In this document: piece by piece, positions 1,034 to 41,202 of the stretch
How positions within the stretch are numbered: the stretch's first letter is position 1
Layout of the letters: every line of letters starts with the position of its first letter
Assembly: GCA_013141015.1 (NCBI GenBank)
Contig: JABFRT010000032.1
Span: 1 to 43,806, forward strand
DNA length: 43,806 bases
DNA from: Hyphomicrobium sp.
GTDB lineage: Bacteria; Pseudomonadota; Alphaproteobacteria; Rhizobiales; Hyphomicrobiaceae
Direction: 5' to 3'
Translations under genes and position numbers: made by a program
Notes under the pieces: model-generated
Databases searched by the model: none
What the model was told of the DNA's origin: nothing
Seen by the model: only the letters and a program-made list of their open reading frames with translations

Positions 1034-2044
1034 ATGAGCGCCCGTATGCCAACCCTCGCGGCCAGTAAGTCTCCGGCCAAATCATCTCCTGTAGCTCCCA
1101 CCCTCCGCCCGAAAGAGTCATTCCAGGATCTGATCCTGACGCTGCAACAGTTCTGGGGCGCGCAAGGCTGCGTGATTTTGCAGCCCTATGACATGGAGGT
1201 CGGCGCCGGAACCTTCCATCCAGCAACCACCTTGCGCGCGTTGGGCCCCAAGCCCTGGGCCGCCGCTTACGTGCAGCCATCGCGCCGCCCGAAAGATGGC
1301 CGCTATGGCGAAAACCCCAACCGCCTGCAGCACTATTATCAGTTCCAAGTAATCATGAAGCCGTCACCGGCCAACATCCAGGAACTGTATCTCGCATCGC
1401 TCGACGCCATTGGCATCGACACGGCGAATAACGACATCCGCTTCGTCGAAGACGATTGGGAAAGCCCAACGCTTGGCGCCTGGGGTCTCGGCTGGGAAGT
1501 CTGGTGCAACGGCATGGAAGTCTCGCAGTTCACTTACTTCCAGCAAGTTGGCGGCTTTGATTGCAATCCGGTTGCCGGCGAAATCACTTACGGGCTTGAG
1601 CGTCTGGCCATGTACGTGCAGGGCGTCGACCGCGTGTTCGATTTGAATTTCAACGGCCGCACCGACGCGCGCCGCTTGAACTATGGCGATGTGTTCCTGC
1701 AAGCCGAACGCGAATATTCGCGCCACAACTTCGAGCACGCCAACACCGATATGCTGTTGCAGCACTTCAAAGACGCGGAAGCCGAGTGCCAATCGCTCCT
1801 GGAGAAGGGCTGGGGCGCGCCTTCCGGCCGGCTCCCTGCAGGGGAGTCGGAAGGCGCAAACAAAATGCATCTTATGGCCCTGCCTGCCTACGACCAGTGC
1901 ATCAAAGCTAGCCACGTCTTCAACTTGCTCGACGCGCGCGGCGTGATCTCGGTGACGGAACGTCAAAGCTATATTCTGCGCGTGCGCGAGCTGGCCAAAG
2001 CCTGCTGCGCCGCGTGGCTCACCACTGATGGAGGACGCGCATGA
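1034..2044 (+). CDS. glyQ: Glycine--tRNA ligase alpha subunit
   Basis: The alpha subunit of the heterotetrameric bacterial GlyRS carries the class II catalytic core that activates glycine; it works with the beta subunit encoded at 3625–5952. Family sequence is clear throughout: [105 protein letters not shown] and the C-terminal [21 protein letters not shown]. The start at 1034 is chosen because the likely promoter overlaps the earlier ATG at 977; ATG 1046 is also possible. The oddity is a 16-codon stretch (1817–1864, [16 protein letters not shown]) just before LPAYDQ, which is a palindromic repeat element read in frame. This site is a short variable loop in the family, so activity is probably kept. 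The stop overlaps the next start (ATGA). Confidence 0.97.
1816..1865 (+). repeat. Palindromic element copy A, inside glyQ in frame
   Basis: Outer arms GCGCCTTC (1817–1824) and GAAGGCGC (1850–1857) enclose an unpaired CGGC (1825–1828) and inner arms CGGCTCCC (1829–1836) and GGGAGTCG (1842–1849), with a short TGCAG loop. One inner pair is G opposite T. The 3' tail is A-rich (AAACAAAA). The 50 bases match 41151–41200 with one difference (T at 1837, C at 41172). It is read as exactly 16 sense codons in glyQ. Confidence 0.9.
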
Positions 2045-2325
2045 ACCAGGAATTGATCGCCGGACTTGTCGCGCTCGGCGTGCCGCTGTTCGCTGTCGGC
2101 TATTTGATGCTGCGCCGGAACGCCGGCGTGTTCCGCATGTTCGTTGCGATGCTGCTGATTGGCCTTGGCTACCTGACGGCAACTGGCGCGATGAACGACA
2201 TCGGCCGCAAGGTCATGGGAACGTACGGCCTGCCACCGCTGCCGCCGGTCCCTGCCGCCGCCCCAGCTGCACCCGCGCCTGCCGCTGCTCCGGCCACGAC
2301 AACCTCTCCCGGTGCAGCCCGTTAA
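2041..2325 (+). CDS. Small membrane protein of the gly operon
   Basis: This 94-residue protein has two hydrophobic segments (about residues 5–22 and 30–50, around [20 protein letters not shown] and [18 protein letters not shown]) followed by an Ala/Pro-rich tail from about residue 64. Its ATG overlaps the glyQ stop codon by four bases, so translation is probably coupled. A small membrane protein between glyQ and glyS is common in alphaproteobacteria, but I know of no assigned function. The low-complexity tail is probably flexible. It would normally be followed directly by glyS; here the Fic gene intervenes. Confidence 0.75.
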
Positions 2326-2329
2326 GTGG

Positions 2330-2429
2330 GCAAACGGTGTCAAAGTGCTGGTTTGTACGCTAAGTCGAAGTTGTGCAAACTCAAACTCTAGGTTTGTATC
2401 TAACTGCAAACCTAACAGTTCCGTTTGTA
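2330..2429. promoter_or_regulatory. Alternating GCAAAC / GTTTGTA half-site array before the Fic gene
   Basis: Six related half-sites alternate in 100 bases: GCAAAC at 2330, 2375 and 2406, and GTTTGTA at 2351, 2392 and 2423. The central pair forms a perfect 8-base inverted repeat, TAGGTTTG (2389–2396) and CAAACCTA (2407–2414), with a 10-base spacer. The stretch is AT-rich compared with its flanks and lies directly ahead of the Fic start at 2463. I infer an operator region, perhaps bound by the winged-helix C-terminus of the Fic protein itself; no regulator gene is adjacent. Confidence 0.55.
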
Positions 2430-2462
2430 CCAAAATCGCAAAACATACAATCTAGTAGTCCA

Positions 2463-3621
2463 ATGAAAACTCACGATTTCGCCCAATCTCCAAGCGGCCG
2501 GTTGGTACCCACAATTGGTGGGCGCCATGCATATGTGCCGAATGATCTGCCACCAAAAATCGAAATCGCATCATTGGTTAACAAACTTTCATCAGCCAAC
2601 CTTGCGCTTGGTGAGTTGAATGGGATCGCAAAGGACACTAAGAATCCTTACCTTCTGATCCGACCGCTGCAGGTCAAAGGAAGCGCTGACTTCATCTCTC
2701 ATGGAGGGAACCTACGCAACAGCTGATGATCTGTTGTTGGCAGATGCAGGCTTTGAGGGAAGTGAACTGGCATCTGACGCTCGCGAGGTCAGCAACTATG
2801 CTCGTGCGTTGAGGGAGGCTACCAAGTCGCTTGCGGACTTACCGTTGTGCTTGAGGACAATACGGAATGCACATGCTGAATTACTTAGAGGTGTTGCTCC
2901 AAACAGAGGAGCAACGGTGCGACCCGGTGAGTTCAAGCATGACCAAAATTGGATCGGTACTACGAACAAGATCAGCGACGCGAGATTTATTCCACCACCT
3001 GCGGCAGAGGCGCAGGAGGCAATGGGGCAGCTTGAAAAATACATTCAGCGGGAAACTCGCGAGGATACACCTGTCCTGCTCGACTCCGCACTAATCCATT
3101 ATCAGTTTGAAGCAATTCATCCTTTTTCAGATGGGAACGGGCGTGTAGGACGAATGCTTATCACGCTGCATCTGACGGAGCGAGGAGCGCTAAAAGCACC
3201 GCTGCTATACATGAGCCCATACTTAGAAGCTCACAAGCAAACTTACATCGACTTAATGTATAGCGTGTCGAAGTTCGGCAATTGGATCGAGTGGGTAGAC
3301 TTTTATCTCACGGCCGTTCTCGAAACATGTAAGGAGACCGTTCGAACCGCAGACAGGCTTTCCGAATTGCGGGATCAAACGAAGGAGAAACTGCGAGCCA
3401 GCGGAAGATCTGCCGGATTGCTGCTTCTCGCAGATTACATATTCCTGCATCCAGTGTTCTCCATCCCTCAGCTTGCAGAATATCTCTCCGTTACGTATCG
3501 ATCTGCGCAGGCGAATATCGAGGTGGCTATGGAAGCCGGAGTGCTGAGGTTGGTTCCAAAGACAACACAGCCGAAATACTATGTCGCACCACAGGTTATG
3601 AAAGTGATCTTTGAAAGTTAG
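2463..3621 (+). pseudogene. Fic family protein, split by a one-base frameshift
   Basis: Fic enzymes usually transfer AMP to protein hydroxyls. The 5' part (ATG 2463 to about 2680) encodes the Fic N-terminal region (RLVPTIGGRHAYVPNDLPP .. LLIRPLQVK). An extra A near 2679–2681 then shifts the frame; deleting it would give LQVKEALTSSLMEGTYAT, restoring the inhibitory helix motif SxxxEG. The remaining ORF, 2701–3621 (306 aa), starts at MEGTYAT and carries the complete catalytic motif HPFSDGNGRVGR (residues 140–151 of that ORF) and a C-terminal winged-helix-like segment (SIPQLAEYLSVTYRSAQANI). So the catalytic half is intact, while the N-terminal domain and the Ser of the inhibitory motif are cut off. 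Codon use is AT-richer than the flanks, which suggests transfer into the operon. A sequencing error is the main alternative. glyS starts three bases after this stop. Confidence 0.85.
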
Positions 3622-3624
3622 TCT

Positions 3625-5952
3625 ATGTCAGAACTTCTCCTTGAACTGTTTTCCGAAGAAATCCCGGCCCGCATGCAGGTCAAGGCGGCGGACGATTTGC
3701 GCCGCCTGGTCAGCGAAGGCTTGAAAGCCCGCGGGCTTGAGACGGGCGAGGCCAAAAGTTTTTCAACGCCGCGCCGCTTGGCGCTGGTGATCGCAAAGGT
3801 GCCAGCCAAATCACCGGCCATTTCAGAAGAAAAGAAGGGCCCGCGCGTCGGCGCGCCGGAACAAGCGGTCGCCGGATTTCTCAAATCCGCCGGCCTCGCG
3901 GCGCTGTCTGACGCCGAGATCGTCAAGGACGACAAGAAGGGCGACTACTACGTCGCGAAAATTGAAAAAGCCGGCCGCCCCGCCGCTGACATCATCGCGG
4001 AAACGGTGCTCGACGTGATGCACAAATTCCCGTGGCCGAAAGCCATGCGCTGGGGCTCAGAACCGTTCCAGTGGGTGCGCCCGCTGCAATCGATCATCTG
4101 CTTGCTCGGTGGCAAAGTCGTGCCGCTCAATATCGCGGGCATCGAAAGCAGCAATGAAACGCGCGGCCACCGCTTCCTTGGGCCAGAGACGTTCAAGGTC
4201 AAAGATTTTGCCGATTATCAAGATAAGCTCGAAAAGCATCATGTGATGTTAGACCCCGCGCGCCGCGTCGCGTCGATTGGCGGGCAGGCGCTGGCGCTGG
4301 CCAAGACAGCCAAGCTCGAACTGGTCGAAGATGAAGCACTGCTCAATGAAAACGCTGGCCTAAACGAATGGCCCACCGTGTTAATCGGCACGTTCGATAC
4401 GGCGTTCCTCGATGTGCCGGGTGAATGCCTGACGACGTCGATGAAGGCTCATCAGAAGTGTTTTTCGCTGCGCGATCCGAAAACCAAAAAGCTCGCCAAC
4501 AAGTTCTTGATGGTCTCGAACCTGATCGCCAAGGATGGCGGCGATCTGATTACGGCTGGCAATGAAAAGGTCATCCGCGCGCGTCTGTCAGACGCCAAGT
4601 TCTTCTGGGACCAGGACTTGAAGAAGCCACTTGACGAAATGGCGAGCCAACTGCGCGGCATCACGTTCCACGAAAAGCTCGGCAGCCAGTGGGAGCGTGT
4701 GCAGCGCGTCGAGGAACTCGCCTTCCAGATCGCGGGCGCGGTTGACGCGAACCCCGAAGATTCCCGCCGCGCCGCCCAAATCTGCAAAGCCGATCTCGTG
4801 TCTGGCATGGTCGGCGAATTCCCTGAGCTGCAAGGTTTGATGGGCCGCTACTACGCCGAACGCGCGGGCGCGAAGCCTGAAATCGCGCGCGCCATTGAAC
4901 TGCACTACAAGCCGAAAGGCCCGACCGACGTGGTGCCGCGCGAAGACGCCGGCGACAGCGTCGCCATTGCCGTCGCGCTCGCCGACAAACTCGATACGCT
5001 TGTGGGCTTCTGGGCCATCAACGAAAAGCCGACCGGGTCCGGCGACCCCTACCAGCTCCGCCGCGCCGCCCTCGGCGTGATCCGCATCGTGATCGAGAAT
5101 GATCTCAGGGTGCCGTTGGGAAAATGGTTCGAAAAACACGTTTCTAACTACGTATTTCCCGCTTCAAATCCGGGGCGCTCGTCCGGTTCTGTCTTCTGGG
5201 TAGAAATGGACAGACGTGATCGCGGAGGGCGGGCGGTGCGTGTAGAAAATGCAACGCAGTTTTCTGCTCCTCCGGATTGGGCAGAAAAAGTTGTACGGCA
5301 TCCAAGTTTTCTGGGGCCAGCGGATTGGGGTGATCCGCTAGATTCAAAGAGTGCGGTATTGGATGTTGATATCCGAAAATACCTAGGTGAAATGCTGTGT
5401 GTTTTTGATTTGCCCACTTTGATATCACGTGACCTCCTCTCCTTCTTCGCCGACCGCCTCAAAGTCTTCCTCAAAGACCAGGGAAAGCGCCACGATCTGA
5501 TCGACGCGGTGTTCTCGCTCGGCGGCCAAGATGACCTGGCGCTCATCGTCAAGCGTGTCGATGCCTTGGACGCATTCCTCACGACAGACGACGGTGCCAA
5601 CCTGCTGGCCGGCGTCAAGCGCGCCGCCAACATCCTCTCAATCGAGGAAAAGAAGGACAAGAAATCCTACGCCGGCAGCTACGATCTCAAACTGCTCAAA
5701 GAGAACGAAGAAGTCGCGCTTGCCGCAAAGATCGAAGAGATCAAGCAGGACACGGTCGCGGCCATCAACGTCGAAAACTTCGCTGGCGCCATGCGCGCGC
5801 TCGCTGAATTGCGCGCACCCGTTGACGCATTCTTCGACAAGATCCTGGTCAATGACGCGGACCCGAAAATCCGCGAAAACCGGTTGCGCATGTTGTCCGA
5901 AATCCGCGCCACCACATTGACGGTCGCCGACTTCTCCAAAATCGCGGGTTGA
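3625..5952 (+). CDS. glyS: Glycine--tRNA ligase beta subunit, with an AT-rich internal expansion
   Basis: The beta subunit binds tRNA-Gly for the alpha subunit. The 775 residues open with the family signature ELLLELFSEEIPARMQ and include FSTPRRLALVI, PKAMRWG, NEWPTVLIGTFD, FFWDQDLKKPL, an HD-like region (DAGDSVAIAVALADKLDTL, GSGDPYQLRRAALG) and a C-terminal DALR-type anticodon-binding region (AGAMRALAELRAPVDAFFDKIL). Between NDLRVPLG (about 5100–5125) and DLLSFFADRLKVFLKDQG (from 5431) lies a segment of about 100 residues, AT-richer and using codons such as CTA that are rare nearby; family members usually have a much shorter linker here. It stays in frame. The start is three bases after the Fic stop and has only a weak ribosome-binding site, so translation may be coupled to the frameshifted upstream gene or rely on a poor initiation site. 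Confidence 0.96.
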   Translation: MSELLLELFSEEIPARMQVKAADDLRRLVSEGLKARGLETGEAKSFSTPRRLALVIAKVPAKSPAISEEKKGPRVGAPEQAVAGFLKSAGLAALSDAEIVKDDKKGDYYVAKIEKAGRPAADIIAETVLDVMHKFPWPKAMRWGSEPFQWVRPLQSIICLLGGKVVPLNIAGIESSNETRGHRFLGPETFKVKDFADYQDKLEKHHVMLDPARRVASIGGQALALAKTAKLELVEDEALLNENAGLNEWPTVLIGTFDTAFLDVPGECLTTSMKAHQKCFSLRDPKTKKLANKFLMVSNLIAKDGGDLITAGNEKVIRARLSDAKFFWDQDLKKPLDEMASQLRGITFHEKLGSQWERVQRVEELAFQIAGAVDANPEDSRRAAQICKADLVSGMVGEFPELQGLMGRYYAERAGAKPEIARAIELHYKPKGPTDVVPREDAGDSVAIAVALADKLDTLVGFWAINEKPTGSGDPYQLRRAALGVIRIVIENDLRVPLGKWFEKHVSNYVFPASNPGRSSGSVFWVEMDRRDRGGRAVRVENATQFSAPPDWAEKVVRHPSFLGPADWGDPLDSKSAVLDVDIRKYLGEMLCVFDLPTLISRDLLSFFADRLKVFLKDQGKRHDLIDAVFSLGGQDDLALIVKRVDALDAFLTTDDGANLLAGVKRAANILSIEEKKDKKSYAGSYDLKLLKENEEVALAAKIEEIKQDTVAAINVENFAGAMRALAELRAPVDAFFDKILVNDADPKIRENRLRMLSEIRATTLTVADFSKIAG

Positions 5953-5986
5953 GGCACACGCTGCGCACCACTCTCTCCCCATTGTC

Positions 5987-6062
5987 ATCCCGGCGTCGCG
6001 GCACGCGATCGTGCGGCACGCACGACAGGCCGGGACCCAGACAGGCTTCCCCGCAGGGAATG
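5987..6062. repeat. Intergenic hairpin repeat (TCCCGGC..GCCGGGA type)
   Basis: TCCCGGC at 5988–5994 pairs with GCCGGGA at 6029–6035, with an inner GTGC..GCAC pairing. This is the outline of a dispersed repeat often seen near alphaproteobacterial gene ends. It follows the glyS stop and precedes the IS element. Confidence 0.6.
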
Positions 6063-6137
6063 TCGCGTATTGTGCTGCGGCCTCAATGAGGCTCACCGTA
6101 ACGGTCACTAAGTTGATGTTTGACTGGATCCCCTAAG

Positions 6138-7163
6138 TTCACAAACGAAGTGCAACACCTTGTGGGTGAGGTGTTGCCATGGGAACCGCCTACAAACAAC
6201 TGTCACTTGAGGACCGGTGCCAGATTGCCCGTCTTCACCAAGACGGGTGTTCGATCCGCAAAATCGCGGCAAGTTTGGATCGCGCGCCATCGACGATTGC
6301 TCGCGAACTGAAGCGCAACACCGGCCGCAAGGTCGGCTACAAACCGGCCTACGCCAGCGAACAAACCAAAGCCCGGCGCTGGAAGGGCTCAAAGCTCGAA
6401 CGTCAGTAGGCGTTGCGCCAAGATGTCCTTGCCCGCCTGACCGCCGGGTGGTCGCCCGAGCAAATCGTTTAGCCGCATGGCGCGCGACAACGGCGGTACA
6501 TCCGTCAGCTACGAAACCATCTATCGCTTCATCTATGCTGAAATTGCACGCACAAAAGACTTCTCCTGGCGGCACTATCTGCCGCGCGCAAAAAGCAAAC
6601 GCGGCTGGCGCGGGCGGCCCGGCGGAAGCCCTGCCAGCTTCATCGAAAAGCGTGTTTCCATTGATCAACGCGGCGCTGACGCCGATGATCGTGCAAACCC
6701 AGGTCATTGGGAGGCCGATCTCATGGGCTTTGCAAAATACGGCCAGAACGTCCTCGCGCTGCACGAGCGCCACTCGCGTTTTCTTATGGCAACCCGCCCG
6801 CAAAATAAAACCGCCGGTCTCATTGCACGCCATCTCGAAAGCTTGCTCGCCCCGCTGCCACCTGAACTCCGCAGATCGCTGACCTTCGATAATGGGACCG
6901 AATTTGCGCGCCACTATTGGCTGCACGAAATCGGCCTCGAAACCTTTTTCTGCGACCCATACTCGCCCTGGCAGAAGGGCGGCATCGAAAACGCTATCGG
7001 TAGGATGCGAAGGCTTCTACCGAGGAAAACCGACCTCGATACGATCTCCGAAAAGCGCTTCCTGGCCTTCATCAAGGCCTACAATCGAACGCCGCGCAAA
7101 TGCCTTGACTACAGAACGCCCGCAGAGCTTATTCTCGAAAAACTGTTGCACTTCGAATGTGAA
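6138..7163 (+). mobile_element. IS30-family insertion sequence, degenerate
   Basis: The terminal inverted repeats are visible: TTCACAAACGAAGTGCAAC at 6138–6156 and the complement of 7145–7163, TTCACATTCGAAGTGCAAC, which differ at two positions. Length is about 1.03 kb, as usual for IS30-type elements, and the single transposase gene between them has the IS30 layout. I could not define a target duplication. The right end abuts a hairpin repeat (7168–7189), which fits the known preference of IS30 elements for palindromic targets. Confidence 0.85.
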
Positions 7164-7190
7164 TCCACATCCCGGCCTTCGCCGGGATGA
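6179..7190 (+). pseudogene. IS30-family transposase, interrupted
   Basis: The N-terminal part (6179–6409) holds the IS30 helix-turn-helix region: YKQLSLEDRCQIARLHQDG and SIRKIAASLDRAPSTIAREL. It is cut by TAG at 6407–6409 and again by TAG at 6470–6472, and the frame then shifts by +1 near 6470. The C-terminal ORF (from ATG 6477) carries an intact DDE triad region: HWEADLMGF, LTFDNGTEFARH and QKGGIENAIGRMRRLLPR. The DNA-binding and catalytic parts are therefore on separate frames and the element is probably inactive unless helped in trans. The C-terminal ORF runs past the right inverted repeat and takes its stop codon at 7188–7190 from the adjacent hairpin repeat. Confidence 0.88.
7168..7189. 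repeat. Hairpin repeat abutting the right end of the IS
   Basis: ATCCCGGC (7169–7176) and GCCGGGAT (7181–7188) form a perfect 8-base stem around a CTTC loop. This is the same type as the hairpin before the IS (5987–6062). Confidence 0.65.
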
Positions 7191-7685
7191 CGGGTGTGGG
7201 AGCATGCAGCTGGTGTGATCGGCGCCTGGGATTTTGAAGATCGAATGCGGCGCGTGCCGCCCGGGCCAATTGAGTGGCCGCAGGCGTTGGCACGCGCCAT
7301 CCCCCTAACCAGCATCTCAGGTTTGCGTTTGATTGACCGTGCTTCCGGCTTCAGTGATTTCCGGTTTGATGACCTGTGGTCAACCGCAGTTCAGCGGCAC
7401 CCAGCACTGAAAAACACAGCGAACCCAACGTCCTGAAAAATTCAAAGGGAGCTGACGCGACAGACCATCAAGCCCTCACCGGATGGCGCGACACCCCGCG
7501 GCACGCGATCCCATCAGCTCCCCTACCGTCTATTAACCAAGCCCCGCCGCTGATGATACCAGCTTCGCGGGATAGGTGTTTCTCACACACATCGCTTGAT
7601 TGATTCTGCGAAAAAATCCCGCGCGATAAAGTTATGGAAAAAAATCTGACGCTTGTTCAGAGAGCCGACTGCTATCACGCGCGCC
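7191..7685. other. Intergenic stretch between IS and mrp, no credible gene
   Basis: About 500 bases without an ORF that looks coding. A 9-base inverted repeat GGGAGCTGA (7447–7455) and TCAGCTCCC (7514–7522) flanks 58 bases that include GCGGCACGCGATC, a string also present at about 5998 upstream of the IS. This suggests repeat remnants rather than a gene. Confidence 0.5.
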
Positions 7686-9242
7686 TCACTCCCTCGCCAA
7701 CCCCTTCGCCGCCAGCTCATCAAGATACGCGGCCCAACGCTGATCTTTTTCGCGCCCCAGCAGATGCAGATAGCCCCAGGTATAGAGCCCCGTGTTGTGG
7801 CCATCATCGAACGCGATGCGCGTGGCGTAATTTCCAACCGGCGCGAGGCTTGAAATTTTGACGTTCTTCTTGCGCGGCACCGTCACGCGTTGATCGGGCG
7901 AATGGCCCTGCACTTCGGCGGACGGGCTCATCACGCGCAGCATCTCGGCTGAATATTCAAACGTCCGGCCATCAGGGAACGCGGCCTTCAAGGTTTTGTC
8001 ACTGTCGGTCACGTCAAGCACCGGCGGTGGCGTCAGCGTGCCCTTGGCGCGTTCCACCTCGCTCCACACTTTCGCGGCCAGCTCGCGGAAAATCGCGGCG
8101 TGGGCGCTATCGGGCTGTGTCACGGTCACCGGCTTGCCGCTGTCGGATGTCTCGCGGATGTCCATATGCAATGGCACTTCGCCAAGGAACGCAACGCCGA
8201 GCTTGGCTGCTTCATCGCGCGCGCCGCCGTGGCCGAAAATATCAGACCGCGTGCCGCAACTCGGGCACAGGAAGTAGCTCATGTTCTCGACAATGCCGAG
8301 GATCGGCACTTCGACCTTCTTGAACATGGCGATGCCCTTGCGCGCGTCGATCAGCGCCAGATCCTGCGGCGTCGAGACGATGACCGCGCCGGCCAGCGGC
8401 ACGTTCTGCGAAATGGTCAGCTGAATATCGCCGGTGCCGGGCGGCATGTCGATGACCAGCACATCAAGATCGCCGGTGTCGCCCGCCCAATCGGTGTCGC
8501 GCAGCATCTGGCCGAGCGCGTTGACAACCATCGGCCCGCGCCACACCACGGGCGTGCCTTCGTCAACCAGAAAGCCCATCGACATGACCTTGAGGCCCCA
8601 GCCAGGCAAGGGTTTGATGGCCTTTCCTTTGGTGATTTCGGGTTGGCCTGAAATGCCAAGCAGGCGCGGCTGAGATGGCCCATAGATATCGGCGTCCACA
8701 ATACCGACTTTCAAGCCAATGGCCTGCAGGCCAAGCGCGAGGTTGACGGTGACCGTGGATTTACCGACGCCGCCCTTGCCGGACGCTACCGCGATCACGT
8801 GCTTGACGCCGGGCACCGCCTGGATCTGCTTTTGCCCGGCCCCTGTTGGCCCACCACCTGATGGCCCGGCTGCCGCCTGACGAGGGCCCGCGCCATCGCC
8901 CGTTGCACCCTTGGCACGGGCCTCCGCCACGCGCGGATGCTCGGGCACCGCGGCCCCCGATGTTTTGACCGGCATTGCGCGCGCCGCACCTGGCGCCGCA
9001 TCTGCGGTCAACACGGCCGTTACGCCCGCCACGCCGTCAACGCCAGAGACCACCTTTTCGGCCGCCTTGCGCAACTGTTCCAGTTCTTCGGCGCGGCTGG
9101 CTGGGATGGTGATCGAGAAATAGACGCGCCCGTCCTTGATCAAGACTTCCGAGACTAAGCCAAGATCGACGATGTTGCCTTCAAGGTCAGGTCCCTTGAC
9201 CCGCCGCAACGCATCGAGAACCTGGGACTTTTCAACGGACAT
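7686..9242 (-). CDS. mrp: Mrp/ApbC iron-sulfur carrier ATPase with C-terminal DUF971 domain
   Basis: Members of this family carry and deliver Fe-S clusters. The start is ATG at 9242 (MSVEKSQVLDALRRVKGPDL), which gives 518 residues; the longer frame upstream to 9641 runs through mobA and is not credible. Domains in order: MIP18/DUF59-like region (residues 1–75), an Ala/Gly/Pro-rich linker, the P-loop NTPase with the deviant Walker A SGKGGVGKST (154–163) and the cluster-binding CPSC (326–329), and a DUF971-like domain (about 410–505, FPDGRTFEYSAEMLRVMSPS .. GHNTGLYTWGYL). Plain bacterial Mrp proteins are about 270–380 residues. This MIP18–NTPase–DUF971 order is that of plant plastid HCF101. It is divergent from mobA, with 127 bases between the starts. 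Confidence 0.93.
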   Translation of the reverse strand: MSVEKSQVLDALRRVKGPDLEGNIVDLGLVSEVLIKDGRVYFSITIPASRAEELEQLRKAAEKVVSGVDGVAGVTAVLTADAAPGAARAMPVKTSGAAVPEHPRVAEARAKGATGDGAGPRQAAAGPSGGGPTGAGQKQIQAVPGVKHVIAVASGKGGVGKSTVTVNLALGLQAIGLKVGIVDADIYGPSQPRLLGISGQPEITKGKAIKPLPGWGLKVMSMGFLVDEGTPVVWRGPMVVNALGQMLRDTDWAGDTGDLDVLVIDMPPGTGDIQLTISQNVPLAGAVIVSTPQDLALIDARKGIAMFKKVEVPILGIVENMSYFLCPSCGTRSDIFGHGGARDEAAKLGVAFLGEVPLHMDIRETSDSGKPVTVTQPDSAHAAIFRELAAKVWSEVERAKGTLTPPPVLDVTDSDKTLKAAFPDGRTFEYSAEMLRVMSPSAEVQGHSPDQRVTVPRKKNVKISSLAPVGNYATRIAFDDGHNTGLYTWGYLHLLGREKDQRWAAYLDELAAKGLARE

Positions 9243-9369
9243 GCAACTGGTCTCCTGATCGGTATTTCTGATCCTGACATGACGCCTTGCCGCCTCAAGC
9301 GCAAGGGGACTGAGCCGCGTCAAGCGCGACTTGCCTTGATCGCTGCGATCTTCGGGCTTACATCGGGGT

Positions 9370-10020
9370 ATGGCTAGTGATCTGTTCGGCGGCGCCCATA
9401 TCCTCGGTGTGATCCTCGCAGGCGGTGCGGCGCGCCGCATGGGCGGTGGTGATAAGGGCCTTCGTCCGTTTGCCGGGGATACGCTGCTTGGCCACGTAAT
9501 CCAGCGTTTCGGCCCGCAGGTGCACCGGCTGATATTGAACGCTAACGGTGATCCGGCGCGGCTTGAACGCTTTGGCTTGCCCATTGTCGCAGACCTCGAT
9601 GGAAAGTCGCTCGGGCCTCTGGCCGGGCTTCTGGCGGCCATGGATTATGCCGGGCGAACGCCGCCGCCACCAATTGGCGCCTTCACCCATATCGCGGCGG
9701 TCTCGACCGACGTGCCCTATTTGCCGCTGGACTTGATTGAACGCCTTGCCGCCGCCGCTGGCAGCGGTGCAGCCATTGCCGTTTCTGACGGGCGCCGCCA
9801 CCCAACCATTGGCTTGTGGCCCCTGTCCCTCAAGGCCAGCCTGATGCACGCCATCGCCCACGGAGAATTGAGCGCCAATGCGTTTGCCGCCCATCACGGC
9901 GCAGTTGAAGTTACCTTCCCATTCAGCGAAACTGACGGCATGCTGGTCGATCCATTCTTAAACGTAAACACCCCGCAAGACCTGGAGATCGCCCGCCGTC
10001 TCGCCGCCCGCCCTTTGTGA
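9370..10020 (+). CDS. mobA: Molybdenum cofactor guanylyltransferase MobA
   Basis: MobA adds GMP to molybdopterin to make the MGD cofactor of DMSO-reductase-family enzymes. The 216 residues begin with the nucleotidyltransferase signature GVILAGGAARRMGGGDKGL (about residues 13–31) and contain ADLDGKSLGPLAGLLAAM, a metal-site region STDVPYLP, and a C-terminal DPFLNVNTPQDLEIA, all typical of MobA. Length is normal. It is followed after 21 bases by mobB, so the two are probably co-transcribed. No molybdoenzyme gene is in the window. Confidence 0.93.
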   Translation: MASDLFGGAHILGVILAGGAARRMGGGDKGLRPFAGDTLLGHVIQRFGPQVHRLILNANGDPARLERFGLPIVADLDGKSLGPLAGLLAAMDYAGRTPPPPIGAFTHIAAVSTDVPYLPLDLIERLAAAAGSGAAIAVSDGRRHPTIGLWPLSLKASLMHAIAHGELSANAFAAHHGAVEVTFPFSETDGMLVDPFLNVNTPQDLEIARRLAARPL

Positions 10021-10041
10021 GCAGAACCCGAAAGAGAGATC

Positions 10042-10602
10042 ATGGCCACCAGCACACGAGCAACGCCACCCGCCACGCCCATGATCGGCGTTGCCGGATG
10101 GTCGAACGCGGGCAAGACCACGCTGATCGAAAAGCTGACGCGGCATTTCACGAGCCAGGGTTTGCGCGTCGCGACCATCAAGCATACCCACCACAAATTC
10201 GAGATCGACAAACCCGATAGCGACACCACGCGCCACCGTATGGCGGGTGCTGCTGAAACAGCGATTGTGTCGGGCACGCGCGTTGCGGTGATCGAAGAAA
10301 TCGACACGCGCGGCGAGCCGACGCTGGAAGAGATCGCAACCCGCTTGAAGCCCGCCGATATCATTCTGGTCGAAGGCTACAAGTCCGCCGCCATTCCGAA
10401 AATCGAAGTGCGCCGCGCGGTGGTTGCTGCAGAAAAATTATTGGCGTCGGCGGATCCCTTGGTGATCGCCATCGCCGCCGACTATGAACTCGACGGCAAC
10501 GGCAAACCGGTGTTCGATCTCGATGATATTGCCGGCCTCGCTGGCGTCATCGAAGACACCTGCGGGCCGTTTGATGTTTTGCGCCGCCGCGCTGCCGGTT
10601 GA
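10042..10602 (+). CDS. mobB: Molybdopterin-guanine dinucleotide biosynthesis adaptor MobB
   Basis: MobB is a GTP-binding partner of MobA that improves MGD formation. The 186-residue protein has a P-loop GWSNAGKTTLIEKL near residues 19–32, followed by VATIKHTHHKFEIDKPDSDT and RHRMAGAAETAIVSG, which are strongly conserved in MobB, and ADIILVEGYKSAAIPKIEV. A likely ribosome-binding site (GAGAGA) precedes ATG 10042. Confidence 0.93.
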   Translation: MATSTRATPPATPMIGVAGWSNAGKTTLIEKLTRHFTSQGLRVATIKHTHHKFEIDKPDSDTTRHRMAGAAETAIVSGTRVAVIEEIDTRGEPTLEEIATRLKPADIILVEGYKSAAIPKIEVRRAVVAAEKLLASADPLVIAIAADYELDGNGKPVFDLDDIAGLAGVIEDTCGPFDVLRRRAAG

Positions 10603-10642
10603 GCGTGAGCCGCCGCCGGTGATGGTTTGGGTGCTTCCGCCG

Positions 10643-10706
10643 AAAAGGCGGCCAACAAAAAAAGGCGGCCAATAAAAAAAAAGGCGGCCATATAAAAAAG
10701 GCGGAG
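10643..10706. repeat. Tandem AAAAGGCGGCC units downstream of mobB
   Basis: Three A-rich units ending in AAAAGGCGGCC (10643–10656, 10657–10673, 10674–10693) are followed by a fourth, partial AAAAAAGGCGGAG. On the minus strand each unit reads GGCCGCC plus a T run, like the 3' half of a terminator repeated in tandem. The last unit is the 3' arm and T run of the ABC-F terminator. Confidence 0.75.
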
Positions 10707-10733
10707 AGGGTTTTGCAACCTTCCATCCGCCTT
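10690..10733 (-). terminator. Rho-independent terminator of the ABC-F gene
   Basis: On the minus strand AAGGCGGA (complement of 10726–10733) pairs with TCCGCCTT (complement of 10698–10705), and a run of T follows (10692–10699). It lies about 170 bases after the ABC-F stop. Confidence 0.7.
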
Positions 10734-10797
10734 CTCCGACCATATCCAAATATTAGCACAGCAGCGTTGCGCTGTCCAATGATCTTTATGCTTACCA

Positions 10798-10819
10798 ACA
10801 AAACGAGCGTTCGTTTTGT
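10798..10819. promoter_or_regulatory. Palindrome ACAAAACGA-4-TCGTTTTGT, possible operator
   Basis: Perfect 9-base arms at 10798–10806 and 10811–10819 around GCGT. The form AAACGA..TCGTTT resembles operators of TetR-type repressors, but no such regulator or divergent promoter is nearby. It lies between two convergent gene ends. Confidence 0.4.
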
Positions 10820-10904
10820 TTGGCGCATTTGGGTTTGCGCTGCCGATCCGCGTTCCGCGAACCGGCCTGATCCGCTGCAGCAGCAAGCAAGTTGTGAGCG
10901 CACC

Positions 10905-12800: not shown

Positions 12801-12908
12801 GGGGCCAGCCGATAGCGTGGATTGGCGCGGCTGTCACGGGGCTCAACGTCACGCCGGTGCTGACGGCGCTTCCGGCCGGCGCGACGAAGGCGTGTCGTCA
12901 GCGACCAA

Positions 12909-13259
12909 CTAGAGAGCAACTCCAAACCGGCCCAGAATCCAGATCATCGCGAGGTAGGCGGCGAATGTCAGTGCAGACGACACAGCGAGGCTCGCCCAAA
13001 AGCCGAGGCCGTTATGCAGAAGTATGGGCAGCGCAATAAACAGCACCAGCGACGGCAGCACGTACCAGAAAATGCTTTGCGACAGCGCCGCGATTTTTGC
13101 CGTGTCTCCGGTCTCGCCGTAAATCCAGAAAAACGCCAGCAGCGATGTCAACGGCAGCGAAGCGATCAACGCCCCGAACGCGCTCGACCGCTTGCCGATT
13201 TCAGAAATGGCAACAACCAGCACAGCTGTGATCAGCACCTTCAAGGCCGTGTACAGCAT
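12909..13259 (-). CDS. DUF3147-type small membrane protein
   Basis: The 116 residues form four hydrophobic segments (MLYTALKVLITAVLVVAISE; AFGALIASLPLTSLLAFFWI; FWYVLPSLVLFIALPILL; LAVSSALTFAAYLAMIWIL). The pattern and length match the DUF3147 family, which has no established function. It sits alone between the ABC-F gene and the GYF-domain gene, on the same strand as both. Confidence 0.75.
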   Translation of the reverse strand: MLYTALKVLITAVLVVAISEIGKRSSAFGALIASLPLTSLLAFFWIYGETGDTAKIAALSQSIFWYVLPSLVLFIALPILLHNGLGFWASLAVSSALTFAAYLAMIWILGRFGVAL

Positions 13260-13321
13260 GACTGAGCCTAGCTCTTGAGAGAAACCAAAACGAGAGCTGA
13301 TTCCAATTTAACGGAACCCGC

Positions 13322-13485
13322 CAAACTTTTCCTCTCCCTTGGGGAGTGGACGTCACGCCCGGCGTGATAGCGCCAAAACAGGCGGGACAGGTGAGGGGCT
13401 TCCCGCAACAATGGAGCCGGTGGCCAGCCCCTCATCCGGTCCTTCGGACCACCTTCTCCCCAAGGGAGAAGGAAACCTAGCAAGT
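13322..13485. repeat. Composite repeat with outward inverted copies of a CTCCCTTGGGGAG hairpin
   Basis: CTCTCCCTTGGGGAG near 13332–13346 and TTCTCCCCAAGGGAGAA at about 13454–13470 are inverted copies of one hairpin type. Between them lie a TCACGCC/GGCGTGA hairpin (about 13353–13367) and the string CCCTCATCCGGTCCTTCGG. It fills the gap between two co-directional genes. Confidence 0.7.
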
Positions 13486-30762: not shown

Positions 30763-30793
30763 AGAACAGCAGCACGACGATGAGGAACATCTT

Positions 30794-32329: not shown

Positions 32330-32433
32330 CGGGCCACACACAGCCGCCCTGTCGCGCGCTTTGCCACCCCTATGCCGCACAATCCTGCTAGTCTGTTGTT
32401 GAATTCGTGCCAGAGCGCGATTAGATCGGGGCC

Positions 32434-33363: not shown

Positions 33364-33413
33364 CGCCCCTCGACAATCACAACGGGTGTACACGGGACGG
33401 ACGAAGATACCGC

Positions 33414-34583: not shown

Positions 34584-34876
34584 GAGGGGTGCCTATAGCG
34601 CATGGCTTTTGCCTTGTCGCCCCCGCCAAGCGACAATTCCGCCGCGTCAAATGTCCAATCCGCACCGGTGTGTGGCTCCGCACCATCTCCCGTCCAACCG
34701 GCGGCTGCCGGGCAAATCCAGCTGAATGAGCCGGATTTGTAGCATTTTATAGGTTTCATAAACCGGGAGTTAGCCTGCGGCCGACTATAGTTCCCCTCGC
34801 GCTCCAGGTGGTCCAAGCCGTGATTTATCCCATTTCATGGCTCCATATCGCGGGCTTCTGATTCGCGAGGGACCTG
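34584..34876. other. Divergent promoter region of rnd and the CAP–RTX gene
   Basis: 293 bases separate the two starts. A short hairpin GGTTT/AAACC lies at about 34752–34764. I see no clear -35/-10 pair. Confidence 0.35.
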
Positions 34877-36244: not shown

Positions 36245-36379
36245 ACGAGGCGCCGCACCACCCCGCTTTTGCACGTTGCGCCAGCATCCCCGGCCAATCC
36301 GCCCCGCGCCTTGACTTTCTAAGCCCCGCGTGGCCATTTCCGCGTCGATTTCCATGATATTCGATGAGGATGACCGGCT

Positions 36380-38194
36380 ATGGCCGACGCGAAACTGCAC
36401 CGTTACCGCTCGCACACCTGCGGGGCTCTCCGGAAGAGCAACGTTGGCCAGGATGTCCGCCTGTCGGGCTGGGTCCATCGCGTGCGCGACCATGGCGGCG
36501 TGCTGTTTATTGATTTGCGCGACCACTACGGCCTGACGCAGATCGTCGCCGATCCGGATTCGAAAGCCTTCAAAGCGGCCGAAGCCGTGCGTTCGGAGTG
36601 GGTGATCCGCGTCGACGCCAAGGTGCGCGAGCGCCCGGCAGGAACAACCAACGCCGATTTGCCGACCGGCGACGTCGAACTTTATGCGACCGAAATTGAA
36701 GTGCTGTCTCAGGCCAAGGAACTTCCGGTTCCAGTTTTCGGCGAGCCCGACTATCCGGAAGACCTGCGCCTCACCTACCGCTTCCTCGATCTCCGGCGCG
36801 AGTCGCTGCACGCCATCATCATGAAGCGCTTGGCAATTACGCGCGACATCCGCGAGCGGATGCATGCTGCCGGCTTCAACGAATTCCCGACGCCGATTTT
36901 GACCGCGTCTTCGCCTGAAGGCGCGCGCGACTTCCTGGTGCCATCGCGCATTCACGCGGGGAAGTTCTACGCGCTGCCGCAAGCGCCGCAGCAGTATAAG
37001 CAGCTCCTCATGGTGTCGGGCTTCGACCGCTATTTCCAGATCGCGCCGTGCTTCCGCGATGAAGATCCGCGCGCCGACCGCTTGCCGGGCGAGTTCTATC
37101 AGCTCGACGTTGAAATGAGCTTCGTCGAGCAGGAAGATATCTTCCAGACGATGGAGCCGGTCATCACCGGCGTGTTTGAAGCGTTCGCGGGCGATATGCC
37201 GGTCACCAAAACATGGCCGCGCATTCCGCACGAAGAAGCCATCCGCAAATACGGTTCCGATAAGCCCGATCTGCGCAACCCCATTGAAATGCAGGACGTG
37301 ACCGAGCACTTCAAAGGCTCGGGCTTCAAAGTGTTCGCCGGCATGATTGAGAAGGATCCGAAGGTGCGCGTGTGGGCGATCCCGGCACCAACCGGCGGCA
37401 GCCGCGCGTTTTGCGACCGCATGAACGCCTGGGCGCAGAAGGAAGGCCAGCCGGGTCTTGGTTACATCATGTTCAAGGATGGCAAGGGCCAGGGGCCGAT
37501 TGCCAACAACATCGGGCCGGAGCGGGTTGCGGCCATTGGCGCGCAAATCAACGCCAAGGATGGCGACGCTTGCTTCTTTGCAGCCGGCGATCCCGCCAAG
37601 TTCTATAAGTTCGCAGGCCTTGCGCGCGATCAGATTGGCCGCGAGTTGAAACTCGTCGATGAGTCCCGATTCGCACTCGCCTGGATCGTCGACTTCCCGT
37701 TCTACGAATGGAACGAGGAAGATAAGAAAATCGATTTCTCGCACAACCCGTTCTCGATGCCGAAGGGTGGCCGCGAGGCGCTTGAAGCCGCCGAGAAGTC
37801 CGGCCGCGATGCGCTGTTGGCATTGAAAGCCAATCAGTACGACATCGTTTGCAACGGCTATGAAATCGCGTCCGGCTCGGTGCGTAACCATGTGCCGGAA
37901 ACGATGGTCAAAGCGTTCGAGATCACCGGTCTCAGCCAAGCCGATGTCGAGGAGCGTTTCGGCGGTCTCTATCGCGCGTTCCAATATGGCGCCCCGCCGC
38001 ACGGCGGTATGGCGGCTGGCATCGAACGCATGGTCATGCTGTTGACGGGTTGTAAGGCCGTGCGCGACGTGGCGCTGTTCCCAATGAACCAGCAGGCTCA
38101 AGACCTGCTGATGGGCGCGCCCGCCGACGTGATGCCCAAGCAGCTGCGCGAACTGTCGCTGCGCGTCATGCTGCCCGAGGCGAAGAAGGCTTAA
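36380..38194 (+). CDS. aspS: Aspartate--tRNA ligase
   Basis: Class IIb synthetase of 604 residues. GAGG lies before ATG 36380. The OB-fold anticodon-binding domain is at the N-terminus ([20 protein letters not shown]). Class II motif 2 is [19 protein letters not shown], the bacterial insertion domain follows (about 290–430), and motif 3 is [16 protein letters not shown]. Length is normal for bacterial AspRS. It is followed by a MEKHLA-domain gene. Confidence 0.97.
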
Positions 38195-38227
38195 ATCGCA
38201 AACGTGCGTGCGGCGGAGTTGCCTGTC

Positions 38228-38713
38228 ATGATCGAGCGTGATCTTGCAGACTTGGCTCCGCCGCTTCGCCACCGCTTCATTGCGCGCACGCAAGAGATTC
38301 TCGACAGCTATCGCCAGCATCTCGGCCACGAGTTGATTGTGCGCAGTGGCGATGCTGAGGACGAAGCATGCCGGTTGTTCGCTGCGCCGTTCGCTGTGCT
38401 GTCGCACGGGTTCGAAGCCGATCCGGTTTTGAACTACGGCAACGCAATTTCGCTCAAGCTGTTTGAGATGAGTGCGGACGGGCTCACCCGCATGGCCTCG
38501 CGGCTTACGGCCGAACCTATGAACCAGGCGGCGCGCGAAATCTTCATGCAGCAAACCCGCGCGCAAGGGTTCGCGACCGGATATGACGGCGTGCGCATCA
38601 GCGCGTCGGGCCGCCGCTTCCGGATCGAAGATGCAACGTTGTGGAATGTGGCCGATGCGCCGGGCGCACCGTCCGGTCAAGCCGCCACTTTCGCGCGCTG
38701 GACGATGCTGTGA
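38228..38713 (+). CDS. MEKHLA domain protein
   Basis: ATG 38228 gives 161 residues; an earlier GTG at 38204 is possible. It has the MEKHLA family pattern: FAAPFAVLSHGFEADPVLNY, GNAISLKLFEMSADGLTRMA, YDGVRISASGRRFRIEDATLWN and the ending GQAATFARWTML. MEKHLA is related to PAS-type sensory domains and has no settled function. The stop codon lies within a 15-base tandem repeat (38704–38748). Confidence 0.8.
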   Translation: MIERDLADLAPPLRHRFIARTQEILDSYRQHLGHELIVRSGDAEDEACRLFAAPFAVLSHGFEADPVLNYGNAISLKLFEMSADGLTRMASRLTAEPMNQAAREIFMQQTRAQGFATGYDGVRISASGRRFRIEDATLWNVADAPGAPSGQAATFARWTML

Positions 38714-38748
38714 GTCCGGATGCTGTGTGCCCAGATGCTGTGATTGTG
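38704..38748. repeat. Three tandem 15-base units, GATGCTGTG core
   Basis: GATGCTGTG begins at 38704, 38719 and 38734, an exact 15-base period with imperfect remainders. The MEKHLA stop codon is in the first unit. In the next frame the units read DAVSP DAVCP DAV. Confidence 0.7.
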
Positions 38749-38930
38749 GCCGCCGTGGGCTATCGCGCCACGCATAAGCCGGCGGGGAGCATTGCTGCTC
38801 CCGGCCGGTCAGTACCTCGCGGCACCTAACGAACGCTGTTGCATTCGTCTGAAGTGAAAACGCCGCGCACCAACTTCGGTTCCAATTTTCTGATCCCGCG
38901 CCATTCGCGATCATGCCGATGCCCGATATT

Positions 38931-39135
38931 TTCCCCCTGCCTTCTGGGGAGGGGTAAGGACGAGAGACCGGTGTTTCAATTTTGAATTCACGGCTGAGGC
39001 TCCCGGACCTGTTTGTGCTCGCACGTCAATTGCAGTCGAACATATGAACCGGCCTGAACTGTGCGCACCTTTGACCACCTGTTTCGCGTATTCTCCCCAT
39101 CCCTAACCCCTCCCCGCTGGGGAGGGGAAATCAGA
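38931..39135. repeat. Two CCCCTCCCC/GGGGAGGGG-type repeats
   Basis: CCCCCTGCCTTCTGGGGAGGGG at about 38934–38956 and CCCCTCCCCGCTGGGGAGGGG at about 39108–39127 are two degenerate copies of one hairpin repeat. The bases between them carry no gene. Confidence 0.55.
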
Positions 39136-39178
39136 CATCGCAACAACCCATCACCCTTCGCGCCGAAGGCGCGCGCGA

Positions 39179-39212
39179 AAGGCGGCTGGCTCGCGCCTTC
39201 GCGAGTCGCCTT
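39179..39212 (+). repeat. Palindromic element copy D (divergent)
   Basis: Outer AAGG (39179–39182) and CCTT (39209–39212), an unpaired CGGC (39183–39186), inner TGGCTCGCG (39187–39195) and CGCGAGTCG (39200–39208), loop CCTT. G opposite T is retained as in copies A–C. The tail is A-rich (CAATCAATAAAG). Confidence 0.55.
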
Positions 39213-39683
39213 GAGCAATCAATAAAGCAAAGGGACGGGGCGGCGAGGCCTCGATCTTTGTTCTTTGTAGTCGGATGCAGCCTTCGCCACCCCGCGTCAT
39301 GCCAAGTCTGCTCCATCGTCCCTGTCCAGCGGCTTTACGGTTGAACAGGGTGTTCGCATTCCTGAGCGGGTCACCTCATGACAAGGCGGCCGCGTCGAGA
39401 CGTTGACCCCACCATCCGCCCCTGCATCTCGAATATCGAGGAGGCGTTGTACCTCGCTGCCGCTGACGGCTCGGCGAGGCCGGCAGAAATCCCCAGGCGC
39501 GCTGAGCCCGCTGGCATCCCGGCATGCTCGCACCCCTCACAGAAACACAGCTATAGTCTGCGCCCTTTGCACGGCGTGCGATGGCGGCATGATGCGCGCG
39601 GCAAAGGGGGGCGGGGATAAGTTTTTTTGAGAATTGTTTTGGGTTTGGTTAGCGGCGCTGCTCCGCGCGTCTCCTGGCGCTCC

Positions 39684-39731
39684 GCGCATGGCGGCCGGCT
39701 CCCGGAAGGAGAGTCGCCATGCGCCAACAAG
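39684..39731 (+). repeat. Palindromic element copy C
   Basis: Outer arms GCGCATGG (39684–39691) and CCATGCGC (39717–39724), unpaired CGGC (39692–39695), inner CGGCTC (39696–39701) and GAGTCG (39711–39716). Tail CAACAAG. The outer arm differs from A and B but both sides changed together, so pairing is kept. Confidence 0.75.
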
Positions 39732-39760
39732 TGCGGCGGGGATCAGGTGTTCACCCCGTC

Positions 39761-39807
39761 ATCCTCAAACCGTGTGCGCCTCTACCGGCGCATCACGGTT
39801 TGAGGAT
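39761..39807. repeat. Large hairpin ATCCTCAAACCGTG..CACGGTTTGAGGAT
   Basis: 14-base perfect arms (39761–39774, 39794–39807) with an inner TGCGCC/GGCGCA pairing. It is followed by GGATCCAGCG and GCTGGATCC sequence, a dispersed-repeat style ending. Confidence 0.8.
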
Positions 39808-40043
39808 CCAGCGTAAAATGCGCCGGAGGCACAAAAGAACTTTTGCGATAGTGGTTCTGCGCTGGATCCCCGCGCTTCCCGCGTGAGTGCAGGGCACGCG
39901 TTCGCGCAAGGATGACGGCTGTGGGAAGAACGGCGCGCAAATCTCTCCGCTTGCAGTCCCGGGCGAGTAACGGTGCGATGCGCCGATGCGAAGACCCGGG
40001 ACCGCGTGGGGCGCCGTTTGAGTGCGATGCCGATGGGACGTGA

Positions 40044-40085
40044 TCCCGGCTCTGCGATGCGCTGCCAGCGCATCTGCGGCCGGGA
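40044..40085. repeat. Hairpin TCCCGGC..GCCGGGA with AGCGCATC inner stem
   Basis: CCCGGC and GCCGGG close an inner GATGCGCT/AGCGCATC stem with a GCC loop. It is the same outline as 5987–6062 and 7168–7189. Confidence 0.65.
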
Positions 40086-40162
40086 ACGCAACAATGGATG
40101 ATGGCTGTGTTCGTCAACCAACGTCTTTGTTTTGATTGATCTGGTTTTCGCGAGTTGGATAA

Positions 40163-40624
40163 TTAGGGGTTGAAATAGAATGCAGCACAAAAATCCGCTT
40201 TCGGCATTGCTGCACACATGCGGTCTAAACGGCCAACTTGGCGATCACCATTTCGAGCTTTTGCCCAACCAATGACCTCGTCGTCGGTCATAAGAAGTTG
40301 AAGCATCACGTGTACTGTCTGGATATCGCCTTTGCGACGTACAGCCACAAGCTCATTGTTCTCTTCCGATGAGACTACAACTACGATGTCGCCCTTCTTT
40401 AAGAAGGAACATTGCCCCGTGGAGCCAAAGTGCTTAATTGCCTTCTGAGCAGCTTCTTTGTCGCCCTGCTTGAAGAACAGTAAAATATCATGCAATTGGG
40501 AATGCGTTCGGCATGCGAGGGCTCCATCACGAATGATTGCTGCAGAGCGACCAGCGGGCACCGCAACGCGGGCAAATGCAAACTGCGGTATGGCCATCAA
40601 AAGTATGGCGATAATTATCCGCAA
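40163..40624 (-). CDS. Small secreted protein, unknown family
   Basis: The likely start is TTG 40624; an in-frame TGA lies shortly upstream and no ATG precedes the signal peptide. The 153-residue product has a signal peptide (RIIIAILLMAIPQFAFA), then about 130 residues with Cys in ALACRTHSQ, GQCSFLKKGDIVVVVSS, RMCAAMPKADFC. The region GQCSFLKKGDIVVVV .. VAVRRKGDIQTVHV looks like an SH3-like beta fold. Its codon use is AT-richer than the housekeeping genes and it is flanked by repeats on both sides, so it may be a recent arrival. Function unknown. Confidence 0.65.
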   Translation of the reverse strand: MRIIIAILLMAIPQFAFARVAVPAGRSAAIIRDGALACRTHSQLHDILLFFKQGDKEAAQKAIKHFGSTGQCSFLKKGDIVVVVSSEENNELVAVRRKGDIQTVHVMLQLLMTDDEVIGWAKARNGDRQVGRLDRMCAAMPKADFCAAFYFNP

Positions 40625-40976
40625 AACGTTGTTGCTTTTCCCAAAGTGTCACGAGGCGGGGGGGGCACTCTTCGTGAGACCAGCAGAATTAGTTCAACCA
40701 GCCTAGGGTCTACTCCGTAAGCTGATTTAGTCAAGTTGCTTGGGTCTCTTTGCTCCCCCCTTGCCTCCCCGCCGCGCCTAGCCTATAGAACGGCCATTCG
40801 ACGCCACTGTCGGATAGATCAAGAGGAAGATCGGCGGGTTGGGACTTGCGAAGCGCAAGCCCGAATTTGACCCGCAGGCCAAGCGGCCCATCACGGTGGC
40901 ATCACACTCATCCAGACCTCCGGCCTTTGCAGGTTGGCTTTGCCGTTCGCGGGGAAGCTTCCGGCGCGGGCCGTAT

Positions 40977-41092
40977 TTTTCCTTCTCCCCTCGGGGAGAA
41001 GGTGCCCTGAAAGGGCGGATGAGGGGGCTTTGCCGGAGTAGCGGTATCAGCCCCCTCACCCCAGCCCTCTCCCCGAGGGGAGAGGGAGTTTC
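40977..41092. repeat. Composite repeat: two TCCCC/GGGGA hairpins in opposite arrangement
   Basis: CCTTCTCCCCTCGGGGAGAAGG at 40980–41001 and CCCTCTCCCCGAGGGGAGAGGG at about 41068–41089 flank GCCCTGAAAGGGC, GGATGAGGGGGC and GCCCCCTCACC. It is the same composite repeat class as 13322–13485. A GCCCGCG/CGCGGGC hairpin follows at about 41108–41127. Confidence 0.75.
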
Positions 41093-41150
41093 ACTATTGC
41101 TTCAACCGCCCGCGTTTTCGCGCGGGCCTCAACAGCGCTTTGAAATGTTC

Positions 41151-41202
41151 CGCGCCTTCCGGCCGGCTCCCCGCAGGGGAGTCGGAAGGCGCAAACAAAA
41201 AA
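41151..41202 (+). repeat. Palindromic element copy B in the rpsA leader
   Basis: Outer arms GCGCCTTC (41152–41159) and GAAGGCGC (41185–41192), unpaired CGGC (41160–41163), inner CGGCTCCCC (41164–41172) and GGGGAGTCG (41176–41184), loop GCA, tail AAACAAAAAA. It ends 20 bases before the rpsA start codon. Confidence 0.9.

Follow-up and report, generated by a model that had tools for sequence, protein, structure and literature searches.

Among described systems, those closest to the repeats reported here are the GTAG and CGTC superfamilies of REP (repetitive extragenic palindromic) sequences, the Rickettsia palindromic elements (RPE) and the CIR repeats of Caulobacter. According to Di Nocera 2013 (PMC3733652), the CGTC REPs of alphaproteobacteria are short palindromes, mostly arranged as head-to-head dimers, with no dedicated transposase, and REPs of both kinds occur within uvrA/uvrB and tRNA synthetase genes. 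RPE are given as 105–146 bp (or about 150 bp) in length (PMC2229807, PMC10969869), and CIR repeats are described as intergenic, two-armed and about 110 bp long (PMC2229807). The family described below was met in a 43,806-nt stretch of a Hyphomicrobium genome (contig JABFRT010000032.1; 'the window' is this whole stretch), and consists of hairpins of 42–50 nt followed by an A-rich 3′ tail, with about 100 copies in the source genome. It behaves like a REP or a miniature inverted-repeat transposable element (MITE), is tolerated inside genes, and is concentrated at the locus of a gene transfer agent (GTA). It is probably a REP-like short palindromic repeat family of Hyphomicrobiaceae that once spread as a non-autonomous element with the help of an enzyme supplied in trans and is now passed on mostly by vertical descent. 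No such family in Hyphomicrobium, and no link between such repeats and GTA genes, was found in the open-licence literature; the main text of Di Nocera 2013 mentions neither Hyphomicrobium nor a gene transfer agent (PMC3733652).

A covariance model seeded with 37 copies (23 of the 60 first copies being omitted) gave 103 unique matches at E ≤ 1 in the 3.9-Mb source genome, 100 of them at E ≤ 0.0013, with 56 on the plus strand and 47 on the minus strand. Among the 37 seed copies, 92.7% of pair cells are paired, compared with 72.7% after shuffling and 36.0–44.8% in slid structures, and 95 cells are changed on both sides where shuffling gives 27.7; the covariation score was reached by none of 500 shuffles. 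Both-side changes affect seven of the ten pairs of the outer helix. Chance similarity is ruled out by this covariation and the 103 genomic matches. The original prediction, which described four palindromic elements of a single family, had looked to such a search for many matches at unrelated loci with compensatory arm changes, and these were found; the opposite outcome it had named (four copies only, neither covariation nor spread) did not occur.

The two parts of the hairpin differ in what is conserved. A broader set of 287 unique matches was taken from 388 rows of three alignments after removal of duplicates and truncated contexts, and still includes some weak and opposite-strand echo matches. 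In this set the outer nine pairs comprise 2534 ungapped cells, of which 2391 are Watson-Crick and the rest G·T (39), A·C (24) or other combinations (80); a further 49 cells are gapped. At inner pair 11, G·T occurs in 253 matches and A·C in two; at inner pair 13 the corresponding counts are 30 and four. The outer stem can thus be almost any perfect stem, while the core, with a left bulge of GGCC and an inner stem holding the fixed G·T pair, bears fixed, strand-specific features. Neighbours no more than 150 nt apart are arranged head-to-head in 23 cases, tail-to-tail in two and in the same direction in 29. For gene context, 100 own-genome matches were placed relative to open reading frames (ORFs) called by a simple codon score, seven of 107 matches being omitted (three duplicates, four weak or echo). 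They lie between tandem genes (26 and 15 in either direction), in convergent (16) or divergent (9) spacers, or within predicted ORFs (11; eight antisense, three sense), and 23 are unclassed for want of a called gene on one side. A transcription terminator was rejected as an explanation, because the tail is A-rich on the copy's own strand and copies stand within genes and in divergent spacers. At one locus (L032:1369-2473) copies form part of a repeated 386-bp unit (at 1496, 1882 and 2268), and a second dense cluster, of 12 copies in 20 kb, surrounds uvrA in another (L221, G007:C1:1244001-1264000).

The densest clusters of five genomes proved to be one and the same locus, a GTA with genes for terminase, HK97 portal, prohead protease, capsid, connector and tail proteins and for TIGR02217 and TIGR02218 proteins, the last two named after the Rhodobacter-type GTA. 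Thirteen genus genomes have a capsid match of at least 76% identity; as the first five had been picked for density, the remaining eight loci, chosen by capsid only, were used to compare densities. These eight carry 63 copies in 150,622 nt, against four in 191,577 nt of control DNA (ten stretches around glyQ from ten genus genomes), a roughly 20-fold concentration. Further yardsticks are 19 copies in 771,715 nt around glyQ in three species and five copies in the 43,806 nt of the window, which had been chosen for its copies. Every one of the 13 GTA loci has at least two copies, which do not count as independent events since the species share ancestry. A general tolerance of hairpins at GTA loci was rejected as the cause, other inverted repeats (stem of at least 9) showing no enrichment there (42 in 270,622 nt versus 48 in 291,577 nt). 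A generic preference for prophages was also checked: two other HK97-like regions of the genus (L250 and L251) have one and no copies. An integron-like array was rejected as an explanation of the dense clusters, given their mixed orientations and the identity of the genes as a GTA cluster. The low counts in the two HK97-like regions are offset by a phage-like region of another genus (L217 and L218, G033:C133) that is dense in copies, although its terminase matches that of the GTA only distantly.

Within the 13 GTA stretches (only L210 of the two own-genome stretches being counted), 35 copies fall in the terminase gene, 27 in the portal gene and 51 elsewhere. Across the GTA loci, 74 of 117 copies are in sense orientation. 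In all 13 loci the conserved parts of the terminase that flank the inserts are joined by a single open frame, and the portal copies likewise lie within an open frame in 13 of 13. As these frames were chosen for being open, what counts as evidence is that conserved sequence flanks the inserts on either side in the same frame. A plus copy ends 18–27 nt before the Walker A codons of the terminase in 11 of the 13 genomes. In L215 a copy was read at the same place, its motif having been missed by the search pattern, and L237 has minus copies only. The number of copies before Walker A varies from one to four, and their orientations vary too. When the pre-Walker A copy was aligned across 12 genomes, 30 double-changed cells were counted against 9.8 after shuffling. 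These compensated changes may have arisen in place, or the copies may have been replaced by conversion or re-insertion; change in place is favoured at one site in a triad of close species (below), because a C-G pair there became T-A between orthologues. Among 26 terminase loci of other genera of the family, three have clear matches and two weak ones, and in three of those without matches (readable with the pattern) a short loop stands at the pre-Walker A place. The source genome's own GTA locus also has, about 5 kb away from the main portal gene, a second and incomplete portal ORF that carries a copy (L209, G000:C15:14902-15426).

The copies in the window, and the two genes beside them, are as follows.

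1816–1865, plus strand: copy A, in frame within glyQ; covariance-model match of 73.0 bits
12864–12913, plus strand: copy E, divergent; 37.7 bits, E 5.2e-8
39174–39224, plus strand: copy D, divergent, intergenic; 42.7 bits, E 1.8e-9; fold z −1.10
39683–39732, plus strand: copy C, outer arm GCGCATGGC/GCCATGCGC; 66.6 bits; fold z −3.60
41151–41200, plus strand: copy B, ending 22 nt 5′ of the rpsA start codon; 76.0 bits; fold z −4.03
977–2044, plus strand: glyQ (glycyl-tRNA synthetase alpha), the ORF that hosts copy A; NF006827 (500 bits), TIGR00388
41222–42937, plus strand: rpsA (30S ribosomal protein S1), 3′ of copy B; NF004955 (1018 bits)

The original prediction was real, and understated. Copies A and B are where it had placed them and differ by one base, and their scores make copies C and D family members. 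Copies A and B fold as it had described, and show a 10-bp outer stem, a 4-nt left bulge, an inner stem starting with G·U and an A-rich tail; copy C folded alone has an unbroken outer stem of 12 bp with a small internal loop, and copy D folds no better than its own shuffles. It had overlooked copy E, which overlaps by 5 nt the 3′ end of a minus-strand ORF (12909–13259), and its four copies fall far short of the 103 matches genome-wide (47 by BLAST with copy A). The shared orientation it had reported extends to all five window copies and is a coincidence of the window, both strands being used across the genome. No Rfam family scored above its gathering cut-off in the window. Beside copy C (39757–39917) two CGTCATCC-type motifs stand in inverted order, their arms paired, and resemble CGTC REPs (family name as in PMC3733652). 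Just 5′ of copy B (40985–41082) lies another GC-rich inverted repeat, of the type CTCCC...GGGGAG, for which Rfam returned sub-threshold microRNA look-alikes only.

Copy A encodes approximately residues 258–273 of the protein read from 1046–2041 (the codon-score gene call sets the glyQ start at 1046); GlyQ has roughly 14 codons more than it would without the insert. A Hyphomicrobium relative (L035) has LLEKGRGDDGHLLALPAYD at the place of 33 residues of the window protein, and the model found no match inside glyQ in 80 named relatives or at the other glyQ loci of the genus. Upstream of glyQ in that relative, a metagenome-assembled genome (MAG), five divergent copies follow in a row about 53 nt apart (L035:758-1023). 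The source MAG itself holds a second glyQ region, 94.7% identical and without the element. A second version of the contig start (L207, G000:C11:1-11000, against window 1–10824) is about 94–96% identical and includes the element-less glyQ; the source bin may therefore mix two strains. In the AlphaFold2 model of GlyQ, residues 257–277 have no secondary structure and lie between helices 234–256 and 278–297; the mean predicted local distance difference test (pLDDT) score of insert residues 261–270 is 51, and the best PDB matches of the model are GlyRS alpha subunits. The same loop carries an unrelated, PPPLEGEVARRAGG-like in-frame insert in GlyQ of a Rhizobiaceae MAG (L076).

Other in-frame copies were found in uvrA, trmFO, ileS and mazG, the last of which has a head-to-head pair; on either side of each insert the sequence matches the protein family. 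A copy in the C-terminal extension of uvrB is less certain. One ileS gene (L025:835-3018) has a second in-frame insert that looks like a further GC-rich repeat (SPRGEAGAARAGEG... PHPNPLPKGRG).

The family was also traced across genomes. The best named glyQ matches make the host Hyphomicrobium-like, and in one genus genome a locus is 100% identical to its counterpart in a Hyphomicrobium MAG. Model matches occur in 22 of 22 genus genomes, in six of the 14 that represent other genera of the family, and in two of 24 from the rest of the order, both of these being weak single matches; the 100 best candidates per genome were scored, so that copy counts are lower bounds. One genus genome (G004) has a single match only. 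A wider survey with stricter filters, scoring the 20 best candidates per genome, found 10 of 297 genomes of the order positive at E ≤ 1e-5 (five of the genus, four of the family, one of another family). The last of these has a single strong copy, at 72 bits (G114:C17:19475-19524), which reflects either transfer or contamination. Spread by plasmids was rejected, copy B having no match in 72,556 plasmid records, and so was spread by phages, whose 50,697 records gave a single match, weak and partial. A scan of IMG/VR with the core pattern (at least 120 stretches) listed 80 loci, of which 11, on 10 contigs, have model matches at E ≤ 0.001; 10 of these 11 loci carry GTA genes. This association is supporting, not independent, as the collection comprises virus-like regions only.

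The proposed history starts from a putative enzyme, acting in trans, that would have spread the repeats as non-autonomous elements in the past. Such an enzyme may read the folded single strand through its core, the outer arms needing only to pair. Most copies would by now be vertically inherited, with local changes in number, and those in genes may survive where the reading frame is kept and the site is an exposed loop. Comparison of 280, 280 and 212 kb from the triad of species, which are 91–95% alike, gives a view of recent change. At two sites the only difference is in how many copies stand next to one another: at one a 58-bp unit is duplicated in tandem (2, 1 and 3 copies), and at the other there are 1, 1 and 3 unlike copies. 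As nearly all copies are common to close species, mobility at present looks low.

Several observations weigh against this history. Five copy sites of one triad genome are filled in five of five cases in the second species and four of five in the third (one site, S1, was paired up from its left flank and match positions only), and no clean recent insertion was seen in the triad at the base-pair level. The best empty site is glyQ, which lacks the element in the second strain and in relatives; the site lies in a variable loop, so the ends of the element are uncertain by several bases, and target duplication was not established there. The model seed consisted of well-paired copies, which biases it toward finding paired ones. 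A profile for Y1 transposases found no match in 21 of 22 genus genomes, other enzyme families not having been searched; a search with the source genome's own Y1 protein as query agreed, with Y1 in one of the 22. That genome encodes one intact Y1 protein (L143), and there is no family copy in the 3.3 kb around its gene. A second Y1 relative in the same genome (G000:C35:3741-4211) is 73% identical to the first and has two TAG stops.

The intact Y1 protein, together with the hairpin size, the bulge and the head-to-head pairs, would fit a usual GTAG REP/REPIN system, in which a REP-associated Y1 transposase (RAYT) moves the repeats. We give this hardly any weight, as four of the genomes without a Y1 match are single contigs and carry at least 55 to 100 copies, and the GT[AG]G tag is no more frequent than in shuffled sequences at the 5′ end (3/287; shuffled 7.0) or the tail end (16/287; shuffled 18.4). 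It is also highly unlikely that the repeats serve as DNA landmarks for the cell-cycle methyltransferase CcrM, a role proposed for the Caulobacter CIR repeats. A GANTC site is present in 219 of 287 copies (220 sites, against 32 after one shuffle), but 68 lack it, including a GTGTC variant (25 copies) that keeps the hairpin plan, and the CIR repeats are described as having two arms and a length of about 110 bp (PMC2229807).

The original prediction had offered either a non-autonomous element or a conserved RNA structure. The dispersed, covarying family accords with the former, apart from its low present mobility. An RNA hairpin copied to many transcripts and selected for processing, stability or translation control is unlikely. 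Such a role would account for G·U on one strand only in the inner stem (pairs 11 and 13), the seat of copy B just before rpsA, the sense majority at GTA loci and the compensatory changes at the terminase site in 12 species. The copies, however, occur in every gene context and on both strands within genes (eight antisense, three sense), and the excess of G·T over A·C in the outer stem is modest (39 against 24), which is not as expected of an RNA stem; the window also gave no Rfam match. We further consider it doubtful that the hairpins function as a component of the Hyphomicrobium GTA, with the genome-wide copies a spill-over of a GTA-linked repeat. In such a role they may tune the expression of GTA genes, prevent packaging of the GTA locus, or supply a needed linker to the terminase and portal proteins, and the recurrent pre-Walker A copy, whose arms change in compensation, speaks for it. 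Genomes without a detected GTA-type capsid also carry many copies (96 in G021 and 51 in G020, among the best 100 candidates), making this role slightly less likely.

In-frame palindromic repeats in genes are best known from Rickettsia, and Hyphomicrobium has cultured, free-living members. A covarying, multi-copy family in a cultured genus makes insertion, tolerance and the effect on enzymes such as GlyQ testable. As the in-gene copies keep the frame and the GlyQ insert is modelled as a loop without secondary structure, such copies may act as peptide linkers, and annotators should be aware that linkers of this kind are repeat-derived. To a specialist, the concentration at the GTA would be the surprising part; with the seat beside the ATPase motif of the terminase, it links the spread of transposase-less REPs with the evolution of domesticated phage genes. 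The presence of REPs in repair and tRNA synthetase genes is already known from Di Nocera 2013 (PMC3733652).

The Hyphomicrobium family shares traits with each of the described systems. Like the RPE, it consists of palindromes inserted in frame in unrelated, conserved protein genes and read as an extra peptide; its unit of 42–50 nt is shorter than the published lengths of RPE and it belongs to another lineage, so that it is not established as an RPE. With the Caulobacter CIR it has in common an alphaproteobacterial host and, in 219 of 287 copies, a GANTC site, and it differs, by published description only, in being shorter and also present within genes. A hairpin with a bulge and head-to-head pairs recall the GTAG REP/REPIN, from which the lack of GT[AG]G enrichment and of a Y1 match in 21 of 22 genus genomes separates it. 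Unpaired CGTC is likewise not enriched at either end (8/287, shuffled 9.6; 3/287, shuffled 10.2), and since neither tag is enriched the family falls outside both the GTAG and the CGTC superfamily. By the dimer rule of CGTC REPs, the 23 head-to-head against two tail-to-tail pairs would fit, yet 29 neighbours run in the same direction. Its likeness to the CGTC REPs, as these are described in PMC3733652, extends to short palindromes and copies in uvrA and tRNA synthetase genes, while the Hyphomicrobium family is distinguished by a longer, two-part stem, a conserved bulge, an A-rich tail in place of CCA, and its density at the GTA.

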